From assembly GCA_021378535.1 (NCBI GenBank), contig JAACJV010000007.1, positions 1 to 40,063 of the forward strand: DNA of 40,063 bases, given 5' to 3'. The DNA is from Ureaplasma sp. Hg1 (GTDB lineage Bacteria; Bacillota_I; Bacilli_A; Mycoplasmatales; Mycoplasmoidaceae). Shown one piece after another: positions 3,121 to 13,358 of this stretch. Both the position numbers and the translations under genes were made by a program. The notes below the pieces were generated by a model. It saw only the letters and a list, made by a program, of their open reading frames with translations, was not told the origin of the DNA and searched no databases. Within the stretch, counting starts at the first letter, position 1. Each line of letters opens with the position of its first letter.

Positions 3121-3795
3121 ATGGGACAAAATATTAAAAATCAAATTGTTGAATATCTTGTAGGTAAGTTTCAGAACGGTGATTATGACCAAGATGCCAA
3201 ATTACCAAGTGAACATTTTTTGGCGAACAAATTTAATTGCTCAAGAAACACAGTGCAATTAGCCCTTCAAGCATTGAAATCAAGTTCAATTATCAAACCA
3301 ATACAAGGTCAAGGAAGTTTTATTAATTTATGTCATTATCATCGATTTATATCTGCTCGTGAAAAACATCGAGCGCCACATGTAAAGTTTGAAGAAATAG
3401 GAGATAATGATTGAGAATTTTTAAAGAATCATTGAATTTATTATCGTAATGATAAATGTATTAAGAAAACATATTCAGACGAAAAAGGAATTAAAATTAT
3501 TGTATTCTCATCACTATTAGTTAATGATCGATTAATCAAAGCAAAAACCTATCCTAAAATACCTTTAGGTAAATTTTTGTATAACGAAAACATTATTATT
3601 TTTGAAATCTTTAAAACTCAAAGAATAATAGCTAAGGATAAATCAAAATTCTGACCAAAAGAATTTGAGGATTACAATTTTTTAGTTTTTAAAAGTTCAT
3701 TTATGTATGATAAAAATCACGATATAATTGAGGATTCATGTAGCATTATGATTTTAGAAGACTTTCGCGAATATCAATATATAAAGATATTTTAG
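3121..3795 (+). CDS. GntR-family (HutC-like) transcriptional regulator
   Basis: The 224-aa protein (TGA codons read as Trp) ends at TAG 3793-3795; AGAAAGG precedes the ATG. Residues 1-70 form a typical GntR winged helix: I..QIVEYLV, then the hallmark KLPSEHFLANKFNCSRNTV followed by ALQAL and the wing GQGSF. The C-terminal ~150 residues match the size and beta-rich texture of a UTRA ligand-binding domain, with EDSCSIMILEDFREYQYIKIF-like ending, but are weakly conserved. It lies 140 bases upstream of, and in the same direction as, the nucleoside uptake/phosphorylase operon. The simplest reading is that it controls that operon in response to a nucleoside or sugar phosphate. The ligand is not deducible from sequence. 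Confidence 0.85.
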
Positions 3796-3935: not shown

Positions 3936-4658
3936 ATGACAGCTCATAATTCAGCAAAAAAAGATGAAATAGCTAAAATTGTTATTATGCCAGGAGACCC
4001 TTTAAGAGCCAAATGGATTGCAGAAAATTTTTTAGATAACCCAAAACTAGTAAATGAAGTTAGGGGAATGTTAGCATACACAGGTGAATATAAAAATAAA
4101 AAAATCACTGTTATGGGCCATGGTATGGGTATCCCATCGATTGGAATATACAGTTACGAATTATTTTCAGATAGATTTTATGATGTTGATGCTATTATAA
4201 GAATCGGATCATGTGCATCTTGAGATGAAAATATTAAGTTAGGTGATGTTGTAGTAGTTAAAGAAGCTTATTCTAAATCTACATTCGCTGATATGGTAGG
4301 GGTTGAAACTAAAAACAATTTACTTTATCCAACAAAGAAATTATTAGACATTGTTTTAGAAACTGCTAAAAATAGAAAAATTAAAACTGTTTCTACTAGA
4401 GCATATAGTGGCGATACTTTTTACTCAAAAGATGGCTATAAAGAAAAGGTAAAATATTCAGGAGCAAAAGTTGCTGAAATGGAATCATTTGGGTTGTATG
4501 CTAATGCAATTACAACTAAAAAAGATGCTCTTTGTATTTTGACTGTAAGCGATAACTCGATAACTAGAGAAGCTATGAATCCGATTGACCGACAAACCAC
4601 ATTTAAAAACATGGTTACTCTAGCATTAGAATCAGCATTAACGTACTATAATAAATAA
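3936..4658 (+). CDS. deoD: Purine nucleoside phosphorylase, DeoD type (first copy)
   Basis: The 240-aa protein matches the usual DeoD length (E. coli about 239). It catalyses phosphorolysis of purine (deoxy)nucleosides to base and (deoxy)ribose-1-phosphate in the cytoplasm. Visible family residues are His4 (MTAHN), MPGDPLRAKWIA with the phosphate-binding Arg, VRGML, VMGHGMGIPS, IRIGSC, the ribose-binding AEMESFG, and the catalytic Asp in TVSDNS followed by the Arg of DRQTTF. All key positions of hexameric PNP are present, so it should be active. One TGA (Trp) falls after GSCAS. A GGAGG ribosome site fixes the start. The stop codon overlaps the next gene's ATG (TAATG), indicating translational coupling with the binding-protein gene. 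Confidence 0.93.
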
Positions 4659-5989
4659 TGAATATAGTTACAAACATTAAAAAAATAATAATAAGCACCT
4701 TTTCAGTAGGAATTATTGTAGCTGCTGTTTTAATCACCGCATTTTCTTCTAGTGGGGACAATAATGGCTTATTAAAATATTATATACCAGATCATACTGA
4801 AATATACAAAGGGTTAACAAATAATGATTTATGGTATGCAAAAGACGCTCCACACGCTGATAAGTACAATTATGGTGCTTATATTCAAACTAAGCAGCAA
4901 AGAGTCAGGGACGGCAGTTTTAATGAATCTATGCTAAATGGGACTATTAATTTTGCACAAGATGAAGGAATAGCTAAAGATAAAGGTACTCCGGCTTATA
5001 AAAAAGTCACCGATAGTAATAACAAACCTTTTTTTCCAGATAATGTCGAAGGCCCTAATAAAAACGGAGCTTCGGTTTATATTGCTGCGGATGATAAATT
5101 AAATAGTTTTGTAGGTCAATATGAGCAAGTTTCAAATGCTGGCTTTAAAATCGGAATATGTGGTGGCTTCCAACATATAAATCCAATTGAGACACTTCTT
5201 AGCGAGCCTAAATATAAGAATATGGGCTTCCTTTTAGAAGACACAACTTTAGAAAACCCTCATGTTGCAAGTGTTTTATTTAAGGCAGATCAATCAGGTT
5301 TTTTAGCTGGTATAGCGTCTTGTTTTTATTTGAAGGAATATTATAGTGACTATTCATCCGGTGGATTAAAGGCTGCAACATATGGTGGAAAACCATTTGA
5401 TCCAGTCATTGCTTATATGGCAGGCTTCCAACAAGGAATTTGATACTATAACGATAATTATGCGAAGGAAGATAAATATAAAGTTTCATTTGTAGATTTA
5501 GGAACAAAGGAACAATTTTTTACAAATAGTTTTGAAACAGATGCAGGTCGAGCGATGGCTGTTGATTTATTAGTGGATGGTGCTGACGTTATAATGCCCG
5601 TGGCAGGAGCGCAAACAGAGATAGTGGTTGACCAAATTATAAAGAATAAAACTCCCACAATGGTCGTTGGAGTAGATACACCAATGGAAAATGATTCTCA
5701 GTTTCAGAAAAAAAATGCAGCAACCGGAAGACCAACAATTGCCTTTAGTGCAACTAAGAATTTAGATTTAGCTACAACATTAGTGTTGCAAAATTTAGAC
5801 AATGGCGTTAGTCATAATACAAAGAATAACACTGGTGGCTTTGGATATACCACTATCGGTGATTTTGATAATGGACTTACAGGTTTATCAGCAAACGGAA
5901 TCAAAATTCTAGAAGATTATATTGGCACCAATTGACGTAAAGATTTAAAAACCCCAATTAATGATATTAAACCCCAATTACAATGTTAG
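4658..5989 (+). CDS. BMP-family nucleoside-binding protein of an ABC importer, no lipobox Cys
   Basis: The 443-aa protein starts at the ATG overlapping the deoD stop and ends at TAG 5987. It has a basic start plus hydrophobic helix (residues ~9-29) and then a BMP/periplasmic-binding fold: FKIGICGGF, NMGFLLEDT, ADQSGFLAGIASCFYL, ATYGGKPFDPVIAYMAGFQQGI, and a second domain with GADVIMPVAGAQTEIVVDQI and VVGVDTPMEND. These match the BmpA/Med group that binds purine nucleosides and feeds the ATPase and permeases encoded next. Position 30, where the lipobox Cys of such proteins lies (ITA-C), is Phe (ITAFSSS), so lipid anchoring is not expected. It would be held by the uncleaved N-terminal helix or released. 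The function call is strong; the specific ligand is inferred from the flanking phosphorylases. Confidence 0.88.
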
Positions 5990-5998
5990 GAGAACATA

Positions 5999-8353
5999 AT
6001 GCCAACTAATAATTTAAATTCCCCTATTGCTATAGAAATGAAGCAAATTACTAAGAAGTTTAACGATGGTAATATTATTGCTAACAACCAAATAGATTTG
6101 CAAATAAAAAGGAATGAAATACACGCTATAATTGGTGAAAATGGAGCAGGGAAATCGACATTAATGTCAATTCTTTTTGGGTTATACAAACCTACCTCTG
6201 GACAAATATTTATTAACAATGAAGAAGTTGATTTCAATAGTGCTCAGGATGCAGCTAAATATAAATTAGGAATGGTTCACCAACATTTTAAATTAGTGGA
6301 TATTTATAGTTTATTTGAGAATATTATAATGGGTTCAGAACCCAACTATAAATTGTTTGGAAAATATAAAACTCCTTTTATTGACCGTAAAGCTGCTTAT
6401 GAAAAATTAATCAAAATTATGGATAAATATAATTTTTATATAAATTTGGATTTGAAGGTTGAAAATGCTAGCGTCGGGGAACAACAAAAAACTGAAATAC
6501 TTAAATTGCTTTATCGAGGGGCCGATACTCTAATATTTGATGAACCAACTGCTGTACTTTCAGACAAAGAGATTACATCTTTTTTAGAAATCTTAAAAGA
6601 ATTTAAAAAAGAAGGTAGAACAATAATATTAATTACTCATAAATTAAATGAAGTGAAAAAAATTGCCGACAGAGGGACTGTAATAAGATTAGGTAAAGTT
6701 GTTGGTAATTTTAATGTAGAAGATGTGACTACGGATGAAATGGCTGAGATGATGGTTGGTAAAAAAGTGGTAGAAGTAGTTAATACGAGCGCTCAACCAA
6801 ATACTAAAGATATTTTAAGAGTAAAGGACCTTATAGTCACAAAAGAAAATAGCAATTTAAATGCTGTTAATTTAGCTTCATTTGCAGTTAAAGAAGGCGA
6901 AATATTTGCTATTGCGGGAGTTGAAGGAAATGGTCAAAGTGAAATTGCCCATGCATTAACTGGACTTATTAAACCTAAATCAGGACTTATTGAATACTAT
7001 GATTCCAAACAAGACATATGAATTAATTTAAATCAAAAATCAATTAAATATCGTAACGATAACGTTTTATCACACGTTCCTGAAGACCGTCATAAACACG
7101 GATTACTATTAGATTTTAGTTGTAACTTAAACGCAATTACTTCAATCATTGATGAGCAAAAATTTGGGTCTAAATATTATATTAAATATCGCAACATAAT
7201 GAATTATGGAAATGAAATTATTGAAAAATATGATGTTAGAGGAACTAACAGAGGGAAAAACGTTGTTCGAGCCTTGTCAGGTGGTAATCAACAAAAATTG
7301 ATTATTGGTCGTGAAATGGTGAAATATCATAAAATAATAGTAATGGTTCAACCAACAAGGGGACTAGATTTGGGGGCTATTCAATTTATCCATGATCAAA
7401 TTTTGCAAGAAAAATTAAAAGGAAATTCTGTTATTTTAATTTCCTATGAATTAGATGAAATTTTCAAATTAGCCGACACTATAGCCGTAATGAACGAAGG
7501 AAAAATAGTAGCATGTAAACCACGAAATGATATTTCTAGAAAAGAAATAGGGCAATTCATGGGTGATTCAATGAAGGAAAAAGAAAATGATTTTTCATGA
7601 GAGGAAAACTTTAAGTTTTTTGAAAATTTATCAGGATGAGATATAAGTAAAAAGTATTGAACTAAAGCACAATATGTATATAGCGAAAATTTTAAGAAGG
7701 ATTTTGGTATTGCTAAAGCTAACCAACAATTATCGCAAGAGATAAATCCATTTAAATACCTATCTAAACTGTTAAAAATAAAGCAAGAAGTTAAGCTAGA
7801 TGCGAAGGAAAAGCATAAAAATTATATAGATTTACAAGAAGCAACATTCCTTAATTTAATAACCTTTAGATATCAAAATGACTATAATGAACATTTTGAT
7901 TTCTATTTAGGTATAGAATCACAATTGCAGAATTTAATAATATCCATTGACGAAAAAAAACTACTAATAGAGAGATCTGATAATTGACTATTTAATTTAA
8001 AAATTAAAGCCGGTATAGTTTGGGCCATCGTTCGATTGCGCTCAATTACTTTAATAGTAGAACCAAGAACAGAGATTGAAAAATACGAACAAAAAATAAT
8101 TTCTAAATATAAAATTAATTATTTAAAAGGGAAAAATAAATTTCAAAATACAGATGATACAATCTTGAATAAAGAGATATCTACTATAAAAGAAAATTTA
8201 GAAAATACTCTTAAAAATAATGAAAAAAAATACTGCGAACAAAAAATAGAATTTAGAAAAAAACTTTTTAAAACAATTGACCCATATGGTGTCAAGAAAA
8301 ATATAGAAATTTTATGAAATTACTTGGAGGAGGCAAAGAATGATGAAAATTAA
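5999..8353 (+). CDS. Nucleoside ABC importer double ATPase with a long C-terminal extension
   Basis: The 784-aa frame (ATG 5999, AGGAGA site) continues through several TGA Trp codons to TAA 8351. Residues ~10-260 are the first ATPase domain: Walker A GENGAGKST (46-54), Q-loop MVHQHFK, signature ENASVGEQQK, Walker B TLIFDEPTAVLS, H-loop ITHK. Residues ~280-530 are the second domain with the degenerate Walker A GVEGNGQS, PEDRHKHGLL, signature LSGGNQQK and VQPTRGLD. This is the MglA/YufO-type layout used by BMP nucleoside importers, whose usual length is about 510-570 aa. Residues ~535-784 are an extra charged, Lys/Glu-rich, probably helical region containing YLGIESQLQNL and KAGIVWAIVRLRSITLIVEP, with no family I recognise. 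Its last 14 bases overlap the first permease gene, whose GGAGGAGG ribosome site lies inside this gene. Confidence 0.9.
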
Positions 8354-9671
8354 TAACAATTTACAATATCATGTAGATAAATTTGTTTATAACAACCAAC
8401 GTAAAACAACAAGTAAGAAAATTTTTATTTCATGTTTATCATTCGTTGTCGCAATGATCATTTCATTAATGTTTATATACGCGGTGCCATCAGGTGCTAA
8501 CCCTATCGAGATTGTCAAGACACTCTTTACAGAGGGATTTGCAGATATGACAGCAAGAACTGGTACATTAGTTTGGATGGGTATTTTAGGATTATCTGCT
8601 TTATCATTTATTATTCCACAAAAAGCAGGAATGTTTAATGTAGGTGTAATAGGTCAAATATTCGGTGGTTCCGTTTTAGCTTACCTTATTGGTGTCAACA
8701 TAACAGCAATCCCAGCTGGAATCGGTCAAATTTTAATGTTGGCTATAGCAATGGCCTTCGGTGCTGCTTATGCCTGATTCGCTGCATTTCTAAAAAACAG
8801 ATATAATGTCCATGAAGTAGTATCGACTATCTTAATCAATTGAATCATCTTCTTTATAGGTACAGTTTTACTAAAGGAATTTACTAGAGATTCAATTGCA
8901 TCAACAACAAGTTATACTTTAATAGATAATTTGAGATTGTATGATCCAATTACTAATTCAGCATGGATTCCCTCTATTGTTTTATTTGTTATAGCCTTGG
9001 TAGGTGTATGAGTTATTTTGAAATTTACAAAATATGGAGTAAAAATATCAGCAACAGGGATGTCTGAAGAAGGGTCACGTAATGCGGGTTACAAAACTCA
9101 TAAATTAAGATCCAATTCCATGATGATTTCAGGAGCCATGGCAGGAGCTTTGGGAATATTAATTTATACAGGTTTAAATCCAAATATGGAAATATCATAT
9201 ACTAGAACATTGCCTCCTTACGGTTTCAATGGTATATCAGTTGGTTTATTAGCAATGTGGAATCCTTGAGGTATTGCTTTCTTCTCCTTTATATTCGGTA
9301 TCTTAGATGCAGGAAGAGATGCTTTATCTTCAATTGGTGTAAATCCAACATTCGTTGCTCTAATTTTAGGGATAGTAATTTATTTAAGTGCTATCTTAAG
9401 TTCATTAACAGTTTATAAACCTTGAATATATGTCTATAAACATATAAAAGGGGAGCGCTATTACGACGGCAGGAAGGCCTACGTTGACTTCCTCTTAACC
9501 CAGATGGATTACTTGGACTATAAAAATAGTACGAGTAAGAAAGAGAATTTAACTAAAATTGAATTAGTTAAATACAAGCAGCAATTATATGATGACTATT
9601 TTAAATTTAAAGCCGATCAAAAAAATATAATATTCACTGCTTTAAAAAAGCCAGGAAGGGGGAATAAATAA
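8340..9671 (+). CDS. Nucleoside ABC importer permease (first subunit)
   Basis: The 443-aa protein begins at ATG 8340 (a second ATG follows immediately) behind TTGGAGGAGG, and ends at TAA overlapping the next ATG. After a short polar N-terminus it has about eight to ten membrane segments. It shows the BPD_transp_2 pattern of YufP/NupP-type permeases: LSALSFIIPQKAGMFNVGVIGQ, NVHEVVSTILINWI, a cytoplasmic loop KFTKYGVKISATGMSEEGSRNAGY, MISGAMAGALGIL and GFNGISVGLLAMWNPWGI. It forms the membrane channel with the second permease. Residues ~366-443 are a charged cytoplasmic tail (GERYYDGRKAYVDFLL... to GRGNK) that such permeases normally lack. Five TGA codons are read as Trp. Confidence 0.9.
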
Positions 9672-10603
9672 TGCCAGCTAATTTTATGTTTCCATTTATT
9701 AATTTTGTAATTGTTTATTTTGCGATCCTGTGAATAGGTGGTATGTCAGGATATTCATCTGAGCGAGTTGGAATTGTCAACTTAGCAATTGATGGTTATA
9801 TGATTATAACAGCTATGTTCTATGCTATTTTAAGCAAGTATATGGGTGAAGTGATGGGCGATGCCGGTTTTTTCCTAGCATCACTGATAACAGGTGTTTT
9901 TGGTATGATGGTCGCTTCCTTACACGGTTTTGCAACTATTACTCTGAAGGTCAATCACATTATATCTGGTATTGCAATAAATTTATTAGCAGCTGGAATA
10001 GCCATCTTTATTAATGTGACCTTAGGTCAATCATTATATGATTCAAATAGTTTAAAAAGTGGTTTTGATGAATTTTCACCAGTAGCAATTGGTTTTTATA
10101 TTTCCTCAATCCTTATAATTTTATTTACAGCAGCAATTATCTTTATTTATTTCATTGCAATCAAATATACAAAATTTGGAATAAGAATGATCGCTGTTGG
10201 AGAAAACCCAAACTCTGTTGATTCACAAGGAATCAATGTTACTAAGTATCAATGAATCGGAGTATTATTATCAGGATTCTTTGCTGGAATCGCCGGTTCC
10301 ATATTTATGTTTTACAATACCTCTTTTACAGGTTCTGTTGATGGAATGGGATTCCTTTGTGTTGCTATCACGATAGCTGGCGGATGAAAGATTCCTAACA
10401 TGACATTCTTTGCCTTCCTCTTTGCATTACTAACAGGGATGGCGCGACGTAATATCTTTCCAATGATGTTTGGCGGGCAAATTGATCCTTGAATTTGAGA
10501 ATCGATTCCTTACATTATTACTGTTGTATCACTTGTGTTCTTTTCCAAACGAAACCGGGTGCCGAAGAATTCGGGAATGCACTTTAATAAAGGAAGGAGA
10601 TAG
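9671..10603 (+). CDS. Nucleoside ABC importer permease (second subunit)
   Basis: The 310-aa protein starts at ATG 9671, sharing bases with the previous stop (TAATG) after AGGAAGGGGG, and ends at TAG 10601. It is almost entirely hydrophobic, with about eight membrane spans. It carries the hallmarks of the YufQ/NupQ permease half: SERVGIVNLAIDGYMIITAMF, KVNHIISGIAINLLAAGIA, the coupling loop YTKFGIRMIAVGENPNSVDSQGINV, SGFFAGIAGSIFMF and GFLCVAITIAGGW. Length is normal for the family. With the preceding permease, ATPase and binding protein it completes a four-gene importer. Confidence 0.92.
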
Positions 10604-10609
10604 CTGGAT

Positions 10610-11326
10610 ATGACAATACACAATGAAGCTTCAAAACAAGATGTTGCAAACGTAGTAATCATGCCTGGCGATCCATTACGAGCAAAATGAATTGCTAACG
10701 AATTTTTAGATGATGCCGTTATGATTAATGACGTTAGAGGCATGTTAGGTTTTACGGGTTATTATAATAATAAAAAGATAACAGTTATGGGTCACGGTAT
10801 GGGGGTCCCTTCCATTGGGATTTATGCCATGGAATTATTTAATCCTGAATTGTATGATGTAGAAAAAATCATTAGAATTGGATCTTGTGGTTCATATGAT
10901 AAAAACATTAAAGTAGGTGATGTTTTCATAGGCAATGAGGCTTATGGACTTACCATTTTCCATAAGCTTATTAAAGTAGAGGCTATTGATAATATATTAA
11001 AACCAGATACAAGTTTATATAATAAAGCAGTAGCTCAAGCTAAAAAAATGAATGTACCATACAAAGTAGGTAGAGTTCTAACTAAGGATGCTTTTTATAT
11101 TGACGATACTGTTGAAGAAATCGTAAGTAAATATAAAATACAAGTAGCGGAAATGGAATCCTTTGGATTATTTGCTTGTGCAAAGAAATTTAATAAAAAA
11201 GCTTTAACGCTTTTAACTGTTAGTAACTCCCATTTTGAAAAGAAAAGCTATACCGCTAAAGAACGCGAATCTAATTTACGCAATATGATTGAATTAGCTT
11301 TAAAGGTAGCAATTAATGAAGATTAA
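10610..11326 (+). CDS. deoD: Second purine nucleoside phosphorylase, catalytic Asp replaced by Asn
   Basis: The 238-aa DeoD paralogue shows the same motifs as the first copy: His4 in MTIHN, MPGDPLRAKWIA, VRGML, VMGHGMGVPS, IRIGSC and AEMESFGLFA. The loop that supplies the proton donor reads TVSNSHF instead of TVSD, so the residue equivalent to E. coli Asp204 is Asn. The Arg partner is retained (KERESNL). Such a change should weaken cleavage of 6-aminopurine nucleosides or shift preference to 6-oxopurines; this is inference from known PNP mechanism. It has a GGAAGGAGATAG ribosome site seven bases before the ATG and follows the permease by 6 bases. The 3' end overlaps the YitT gene by 11 bases. 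Confidence 0.92.
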
Positions 11327-12458
11327 CACTCCTCTAAATAACAAAACTGTTTGTAGTGAAATACACTTATCTAATAAGCAAATTATATTTCACAAAATGT
11401 ATAAAATGGATCAATGAAAGAAATATATTTGAATTTGTGGATTAGCTATTTTATTTGGTGCTAGTATAGCAATTTTTCAAAAAAATACTGGATTAAATAG
11501 TGTTGGAATTGCTGGTGTTTTACAAGGCATAAGTCGGATCACTAAAACATCATTGATTTTAAATGGAACTGATCAAGCAACGGTTAATCTTGTATACGAC
11601 TTAATGTTTTGGGGTTTATTTCTAGTCTTAAATATTCCTACTTTAATATTTGCTTATTATAAAGTCGGAAAACAATTTACATATTTAAGTACAGTTTTTC
11701 AAATCGTTTTGTTTGCTACAGGTATGATAATAGGGCAAATACCTAATATAGATAAATTACAAATCTTTGGCAATGCTTATAGTTATAATGTTGATTTAAC
11801 AAGCAATGGAGTGCAATTACTTGATTGAAATTACAAGGTAGTTATAGATAGTGTTACTTATTCAGACACTGATGCAGTTTGATCATTATTTATTTATGCA
11901 ATGGTTTTAGCTATATGTGCAGCCTTCATCCTTGCAATATTATATATTTTAGGATCATCAAATGCAGGGGTTGACCCATTTACCATTTACTATAGTAGGA
12001 TAAAGCATAAACCATTGGGAACATTAATTATTTACATTAATATTATAGGTTTATTATTAGGAACTACAATTGGTAATTTCATCCCAGCTGGAATGGCAGA
12101 TAACAATTATTCCGTCTCGAGATTCTTTTCGCCCAACTTAGTTATTTCTTTATTTTATTCACTTATAATCGGGACATTAATTAATAAACTGTATCCGAAG
12201 CAAAAGTTAGTTAAAGTGCGAATTCATTATAACAACTCCAATGAAATTAAGGAAAATTGATTAAAGTATAACCCTCACATGCGCGTTTCATTGTATGAAG
12301 ATAATGCCGGTAATAGCGTTAGTACGATCTGTCGTCTAGTTGATTTAGATGAAATACTTAACATTAGTAAGATTGATGACAATGAAAAATTAATTGAAAT
12401 AATTCCTGTATTAGCATTAGACGGTAATATTTCGGTTAAATATAAACTCGATGACTAA
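11316..12458 (+). CDS. YitT-family membrane protein
   Basis: The 380-aa frame opens at ATG 11316 inside the end of the phosphorylase gene and ends at TAA 12456, with TGA Trp codons near 11414, 11429, 11825, 11879 and 12258. After ~35 polar residues come six hydrophobic segments. The text LNSVGIAGVLQGISRI, NIPTLIFAYYKVGKQFTYLST and SSNAGVDPFTIYYS matches the YitT/DUF161 family of unknown transport function. The soluble C-terminal ~100 residues (SLYEDNAGNSV..., KLIEIIPVLAL) correspond to the DUF2179-like domain of this family. It is the last gene of the nucleoside operon; nothing in the sequence shows whether it takes part in nucleoside handling. Confidence 0.83.
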
Positions 12459-12500
12459 TTATTTATGGCAATAGAGAATGAAGTATCTTAAAAAGATTAA

Positions 12501-12536
12501 AATAAAAGAGCAGTTTCTTGCTCTTTTATTTTTTTT
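12501..12536 (+). terminator. Terminator of the nucleoside operon (bidirectional)
   Basis: AATAAAAGAGCA (12501-12512) pairs with TGCTCTTTTATT (12519-12530) around a 6-base loop and runs into a T-tract. It lies 43 bases after the YitT stop and 22 bases before the end of the convergent minus-strand gene, so it can serve both. Confidence 0.88.
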
Positions 12537-12557
12537 AGACGTTTTAAACTATTGCTA

Positions 12558-13358
12558 TTATTTAAGCAATGATAATAGATGGTTATATAAATTATTGAAA
12601 TCTGTTAGATTAAAATTTTTGTTTAATTCACTTTTTTCAGGATGTTTACTGTTAAGAGTGAAAACCATTTCTTGCAATTTTGAGGCTGTTGTTTTAATTT
12701 CATTAAAATTGTTAATATGTGGCGCTAGAATTATTAACAATATTACATTAATAATTAATAAACAAAAACTAGTCATTAATAACGTTGGTGCTAAAAGTAA
12801 ATGTTTTTTAGAAGTGGATACTAAAGCAATTGATGTGACAATGGATAGTGTTGCAAAGATAAACGTGGTAATTGCAAGACCTTCTTCGGGAATTATTTGC
12901 ATATTAAATAAATCATTTATTTTATTTGAAGATAAGCCGGTACTTTGTTTTGACCAAGCATCAAATATAGTGGGATATGTTTTAGTGCTAACTCATAATT
13001 TATCACTACTAAACAGTGAAACTATTTTGACGTTAGTCATAGCTGCAAAAGATATAACTACAATTGCAATGACGATAGTAATTAACGCTAATCACAAAGC
13101 AAGGGTACGATATTGATACCTTAAGAAATATTTATAAACTGGTTGATAATTACCAAACTCAAAGGGTTTTGTTTTAGATGCGCGCAATGTTGCAATAACC
13201 GCTTGTTTATCTTTTGCTTTATCACATTTTTCGATTTCACGTAATTCTTTATAGTTGTTCTGATTTTTTTGTTCTAAATTATTAGTAATTGCTTTATTAG
13301 TAATGTCGGTTGGGATGTTAATTTTATTTAACGAGTCACTTGGTCTAATGTCATTCAT
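12558..13358 (-). CDS. Hypothetical membrane protein
   Basis: The 266-aa frame runs from ATG 13358 (AGGAGT upstream) to TAA 12558, with TGA codons read as Trp. The first ~80 residues are hydrophilic (NKINIPTDITNKAITNN..., KELREIEKCDKAKDK) and probably cytoplasmic. A first membrane helix is LALITIVIAIVVISFA. A ~50-residue loop with two SxxxW-type aromatic stretches follows, then two helices (LAITTFIFATLSIVTSIALVS and LLLAPTLLMTSFCLLIINVILLIIL), and a polar C-terminal ~60 residues. I do not recognise a family. It is a single-gene unit sharing the operon terminator at 12501. Confidence 0.75.

Follow-up and report, generated by a model that had tools for sequence, protein, structure and literature searches.

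What does a purine nucleoside phosphorylase (PNP) do when the Asp that protonates its substrate is replaced, in nature, by Asn? This question is raised by a gene cluster in a 40,063-nt contig of Ureaplasma sp. Hg1 (JAACJV010000007.1, positions 1 to 40,063, forward strand), called the window below; this 40 kb contig is part of a 42-contig genome of 1.155 Mb (G000) that is estimated to be 85% complete. A preliminary description of the window had noticed two DeoD-type paralogues flanking one importer, the first (P0002) reading TVSD and the second (P0001) TVSN at the residue equivalent to Asp204 of E. coli PNP (EcPNP, whose numbering is used throughout). Our results bore this out: a PnrA-like ATP-binding cassette (ABC) importer lies between the two genes, the translations read ...LTVSDNS... 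in P0002 and ...LLTVSNSH... in P0001, and a HMMER alignment that is gap-free around the site places the Asn of P0001 on EcPNP D204. On the evidence set out below, P0001 is probably an active hexameric PNP that is shifted towards 6-oxopurine nucleosides and feeds hypoxanthine-guanine phosphoribosyltransferase (HGPRT).

P0001 scored above the curated NCBIfam cut-offs for DeoD (TIGR00107, 256.8 bits, cut-off 232.25; NF004489, 261.8 bits, cut-off 230), and its 12 NCBIfam hits at E ≤ 0.001 included no model of trimeric (low-molecular-weight) PNPs. The AlphaFold model of the protein (mean pLDDT 96.4) matched the hexameric PNPs of E. coli, Trichomonas and B. subtilis with TM scores of 0.88-0.92, and the closest folds were all hexameric PNPs, including the D204N mutants 9fxe and 3uay; the top PDB match of P0001 was 9fxe, the engineered E. 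coli mutant. A search of genome contigs with P0001 gave a sole match, which was remote and came from Flavobacteriales. All the phosphate and ribose residues of the family are kept (G20, R24, R43, R87, S90, H4, M64 and E181), together with F159, Y160, E179, M180, S203 and R217. The catalytic Asp204 by which DeoD members are usually recognised is Asn in P0001; PNP I of T. thermophilus (TthPNP I, or TtPNP) likewise has no Asp204, yet is classed with the hexameric PNPs. The residues after the Asn (SHFEKKSY) include no nearby Asp able to replace the donor. The preliminary description had also held that the other phosphate, ribose and base residues were conserved, which was correct for the phosphate and ribose sites but not for the base pocket, where P0001 carries the changes A156K, V178A and I206H. 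Taken together, sequence, predicted fold and remaining residues indicate that P0001 is a DeoD-type (hexameric, high-molecular-weight) PNP.

An assembly or sequencing error was ruled out as the origin of the Asn, since the orthologue in the one other genome of the genus examined (G001), which is 60% identical to P0001, has Asn by a different codon (AAT versus AAC). This orthologue adjoins the same importer, but on the opposite strand. Decay of the gene, which the preliminary description had rejected, was excluded as well: the open reading frame (ORF) is intact under code 4, the active-site residues are kept and the fold is confidently modelled. Code 4 (TGA as Trp) is required to read P0001. Table 11 breaks the frame at W27 and leaves a 201-aa piece from position 10721, a truncation that is purely an effect of the genetic code. 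Table 4 restores such broken frames, which marks the source as a mollicute with TGA for Trp. Judged by its sequence and model, P0001 is a maintained enzyme gene.

The residue at 204 was then compared across eight families of the order, in 179 distinct DeoD rows (sampled species representatives, many with incomplete genomes). Of these rows, 161 had Asp, 9 Glu, 7 Asn (from 6 genes, one of them present twice) and 2 Val. All six Asn204 genes (window, G001, G010, G035, G040 and G047) fall within the family of the window, and every one of them keeps H4, G20, R24, R43, M64, R87, S/T90, E181 and R217. A single origin of these genes was rejected (p-AU 0.0002, column 204 masked). They are scattered among Asp genes on the tree, with at least 5 changes of the Asn state when column 204 is masked; we state this as at least 4-5 changes, as the unmasked tree unites G035 and G040. 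In both G035 and G040, which showed no second DeoD, the Asn gene directly follows dnaG, as the Asp204 genes of the same genus do, and this position common to Asn and Asp genes indicates that the change occurred within the gene at one conserved locus.

Substitution at this position extends beyond Asn: it has been altered repeatedly, since other families have second copies with Glu204 or Val204 (Table 1). The nine Glu204 rows all carry Asn180 (Met180Asn), keep the phosphate and ribose residues and have at least 2 origins on the tree; from their sequences, these copies possibly act on a substrate other than an ordinary purine nucleoside. The Val204 copies are without a proton donor, and have an altered base wall and a kept phosphate site. 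We suggest tentatively, as something that may hold but falls short of probable, that residue 204 is a recurrent switch of DeoD enzymes in mollicutes. On this view Asp gave way to Asn no fewer than 4-5 times, to Glu on two or more occasions and to Val once, in duplicated copies and sometimes in single ones. Several lineages would thereby have gained new base specificities, some perhaps beyond ordinary purines, with the phosphate and ribose residues retained, and P0001 (Asn204/Lys156/His206) would be one case.

Characterised enzymes give an indication of what the Asn would do. The natural precedent is TtPNP (1odi-1odl), which like P0001 has the hexameric DeoD fold and a natural Asn204 in a VSN motif, so that P0001 is less surprising than first presented. 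In sequence the two are only remotely related (1odi, E 3.5e-27, versus ~1e-50 for E. coli-type PNPs). The scatter of Asn genes among Asp genes in the order and the E. coli-type best PDB matches of P0001 suggest that its Asn may have arisen separately from that of TtPNP, which forms a very long branch in the tree. The same substitution has been engineered in E. coli PNP (1ecp; 9fxe) and in B. cereus adenosine phosphorylase (3uaw-3uaz, solved with adenosine and inosine), both of the DeoD family, whereas the Asn of P0001 is natural. The E. coli enzyme is ~42% identical to P0001 in the fold alignment, and the active-site sets of the two are equal except at 204 and a few pocket positions. Wild-type B. 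cereus adenosine phosphorylase (AdoP) prefers 6-aminopurines; a 2012 study by Dessanti reportedly found that its D204N form loses adenosine activity and retains inosine activity, and in a 2004 study by Tahirov guanosine is said to be the one true substrate of TtPNP, with its Asn204. In E. coli PNP, closure of the site moves Arg217 to Asp204, which protonates purine N7, and the D204N mutant is functional yet unable to donate the proton (PMC11477426). TthPNP I is a hexamer active on guanosine, inosine, deoxyguanosine and deoxyinosine (PMC11430618); it takes 6-oxopurines only, and the second PNP that T. thermophilus has alongside it, TthPNP II, is of the opposite base class and takes 6-aminopurines only (PMC11430614). 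The preliminary description had drawn instead on trimeric PNPs (human Asn243; bacterial PunA type), in which Asn at the base position goes with 6-oxopurine specificity. That association is sound, and the reciprocal change N243D in human PNP raises the adenosine kcat ~5,000-fold (PMC6128611), but trimeric PNPs differ from P0001 in subfamily and oligomer, P0001 matching DeoD models, and the hexameric TtPNP is the better precedent. A 2024 study distinguished Asp from Asn types of purine nucleoside phosphorylase, named for the base-coordinating residue, according to the xanthine products formed; the Asn types favour N9-xanthosine over N7 (PMC11058261).

By analogy with these enzymes, we infer that P0001 is active and likely prefers 6-oxopurine nucleosides, namely guanosine and inosine. 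The adjacent PnrA-like importer would deliver guanosine and inosine (and their deoxy forms) to P0001, which would use phosphate to split them into (deoxy)ribose-1-phosphate and guanine or hypoxanthine, the base then passing to HGPRT. At the active site, the proton that Asp204 of E. coli PNP gives to N7 would be needed for adenosine, and Asn would be unable to donate it. Asn could hydrogen-bond N7/O6 and steady the negative charge on the 6-oxopurine leaving group; cleavage of guanosine and inosine would persist and that of adenosine would fall. The changes to K156, A178 and H206 could shift the preference further, to guanosine over inosine, or to xanthosine. This reading is supported by the presence of the Asn in both genomes of the genus examined, with the importer adjacent in both. 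G000 has APRT, HGPRT and GMP reductase; adenosine deaminase was not found in this ~85% complete genome, and the only match to an IMPDH-family search in it was GMP reductase, so that guanosine or guanine would be the expected source of its guanine nucleotides. These could also yield IMP and, from it, AMP.

The purine genes of G000 deserve mention in their own right. Seven consecutive genes, purE, purK, purL, purF, purM, purN and purD, lie at G000:C1 ~65.5-74.5 kb (L226:9535-18521); purL is one long chain, and TGA is read as Trp inside the pur genes. To our knowledge, mollicutes are usually said to lack the de novo purine pathway. Within the same family, purD was over the cut-off in 19 of the 36 genomes of genus g7. 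This partial pathway means that salvage may not be the sole source of adenine nucleotides in G000. In addition, an orotate phosphoribosyltransferase gene follows the apparent end of a dihydroorotase gene at G000:C39 ~25 kb (L219), which looks like part of de novo pyrimidine synthesis.

Several observations weigh against a 6-oxopurine-shifted P0001. The analogy with TtPNP is inexact: TtPNP has Leu at 217, where P0001 keeps Arg217, and Glu156 and Ile206, where P0001 has Lys156 and His206, so that the pocket may suit another substrate; Ala178 is a further difference. The absences of GuaB and adenosine deaminase are soft at the completeness of G000, and GuaB may sit in the missing 15%. Finally, three genomes (G035, G040 and G047; 82-85% complete) show one DeoD, in the Asn form, and no adenosine deaminase, and therefore have no visible route to split adenosine. 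Either these lone-Asn genomes argue against a universal division of labour, and so weaken it as a general explanation of the Asn, or adenosine may simply not be used in these species; with genomes this incomplete, neither reading is firm.

A broad-specificity enzyme would make the lone-Asn genomes viable, and P0001 might still be one, with Asn slowing the overall rate, adenosine still being cleaved, and the duplicate serving dose or separate regulation. Arg217 and the remaining catalytic site are indeed kept in P0001, and E. coli D204N remains measurably active towards several bases and analogues. However, Asp204 is otherwise the rule (161/179 rows), the characterised natural Asn204 enzyme acts on 6-oxopurines only, and the same Asp/Asn logic holds in trimeric enzymes; we regard breadth as unlikely. 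The altered pocket suggests a different alternative, a substrate outside the ordinary purine nucleosides such as xanthosine or a modified nucleoside, whose 2-oxo or anionic base could be held by Lys156, Asn204 and His206. P0001 and its G001 orthologue both carry Lys156, which none of the 161 Asp204 rows has, residue 156 lines the pocket near the C2 substituent (PMC3434127), the preference of Asn types for N9-xanthosine points the same way, and other second copies in the order have stranger pockets (E204 with N180; V204). Against this, ordinary DeoDs show no constancy at 156 (S, E, T or A) and a xanthine-specific phosphoribosyltransferase was not recognised among the genes checked, which leaves such a substrate quite improbable. 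Very improbable, in our judgement, is a weak or inactive P0001 that tunes an Asp204 copy in mixed hexamers through His4 and Arg43: these residues come from the neighbouring subunit in the DeoD family (PMC3434127, PMC11477426), both are kept and the two genes share one cluster, but a scaffold would not need the fully kept phosphate and catalytic residues, the G001 cluster lacks a counterpart of P0002, and P0001 and P0002 are only 49% identical.

A preference of P0001 for 6-oxopurines, as the preliminary description had supposed, is thus likely; its further proposal that the two copies of the operon form an adenosine/6-oxopurine pair is not established, and three results speak against it. G000 has three DeoD genes rather than the two first counted, the overlooked one being an Asp204 copy directly after pgk (G000:C12:93653-94351); the Asp partner in G001 is pgk-linked; and the lone-Asn genomes have no partner in view. 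The pgk-linked DeoD looks like a vertically kept copy, since G001 has it and, in a different genus of the family, three genomes (L027, L031 and L036) likewise have it beside pgk. G001 (79% complete) has no P0002 counterpart in the cluster, and its Asn copy coexists with the pgk-linked Asp copy only. The base pocket of P0002 is altered too (G92A, A156G and I206S), and another G000 contig holds a nucleosidase-like relative, named by inspection only. A recent tandem duplication of P0002 as the origin of P0001 was unsupported, given their identity and the tree, in which the only starred clade of P0001 joins it with its closest relative, the G001 orthologue. The idea that linkage to the importer marks out Asn-type PNPs was rejected, since in G078 and G115 a related permease adjoins Asp204 DeoDs too. 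Elsewhere in the survey, two DeoD genes of one genome, L078 and L082 (G012:C1:210412-215765), lie ~4 kb apart, both with Asp204, one reading VVD for VSD. The lone Asn204 DeoD of G047 (L225:1-1576) immediately follows guanylate kinase, in the same orientation, and bears an acidic, Ala/Pro-rich C-terminal extension of ~80 residues; a phosphoribosyltransferase-family search gave no match in G047.

The features of the cluster and the variant copies are collected in Table 1. The ribosome-binding site of P0001, AAAGGAAGGAG, lies inside the 3' end of the upstream permease gene, and the ATG starts 7 nt past the last base of that gene; this arrangement makes joint translation of P0001 and the importer very likely. 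Shuffled sequences contained promoter- and terminator-like sites no less often than the cluster did, and Rfam gave zero matches within the window. The importer proteins carry long tails that are not the same in the two species, ~270 extra C-terminal residues on the window ATPase, in which Pfam matched nothing, and ~370 on a permease in G001 (L104:6928-9096). Downstream of the cluster, long ORFs at 12478-13137 (+) and 12558-13358 (-) overlap on opposite strands, of which likely at most one is a gene.

Table 1. Features of the gene cluster in the window and DeoD copies with Glu or Val at position 204 elsewhere in the order
Feature	Position or locus	Strand	Evidence and remarks
GntR-family regulator, upstream of cluster	3121..3795	+	PF00392, 40.6 bits
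P0002, DeoD-type PNP, Asp204 form	3936..4658	+	240 aa, code 4; TIGR00107, 265.5 bits
PnrA-like (Bmp) substrate-binding lipoprotein of importer	4658..5989	+	PF02608, 53.6 bits, cut-off 24.1
ABC ATPase, two nucleotide-binding domains and long C-terminal extension	5999..8353	+	Pfam
ABC permease (BPD_transp_2)	8340..9671	+	
ABC permease (BPD_transp_2)	9671..10603	+	
P0001, DeoD-type PNP, Asn204 form	10610..11326	+	238 aa, code 4
AAG codon, Lys159 of P0001 (EcPNP Ala156)	11084..11086	+	C2 side of base pocket (PMC3434127)
AAC codon, Asn206 of P0001 (EcPNP Asp204)	11225..11227	+	HMMER alignment
CAT codon, His208 of P0001 (EcPNP Ile206)	11231..11233	+	Tyr in G001 orthologue
YitT-like membrane protein, 11-nt overlap with P0001 end	11316..12458	+	weak match, NF043063, 72.1 bits, below cut-off 550
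Glu204/Asn180 second DeoD copies, family f7	L186, L187, L189, L191, L192-L194, L196, L199		
Val204 second DeoD copies, family f5	L185 (G228), L190 (G163)		Ile/Leu159, Ser178

The recurrence of the Asp-to-Asn change across the family is the part of these findings most worth keeping. The scattered changes, some of them in orthologous genes at the conserved dnaG-deoD locus, provide natural pairs that bear on which other residues have to alter once the proton donor is gone. DeoD is usually entered as broad in metabolic models, and a one-residue marker of guanosine/inosine versus adenosine-competent enzymes would improve both annotation and such models. Mycoplasma enzymes are known for breaking down nucleoside drugs when cell cultures are infected, and nucleoside phosphorylases shape purine salvage in mollicutes.
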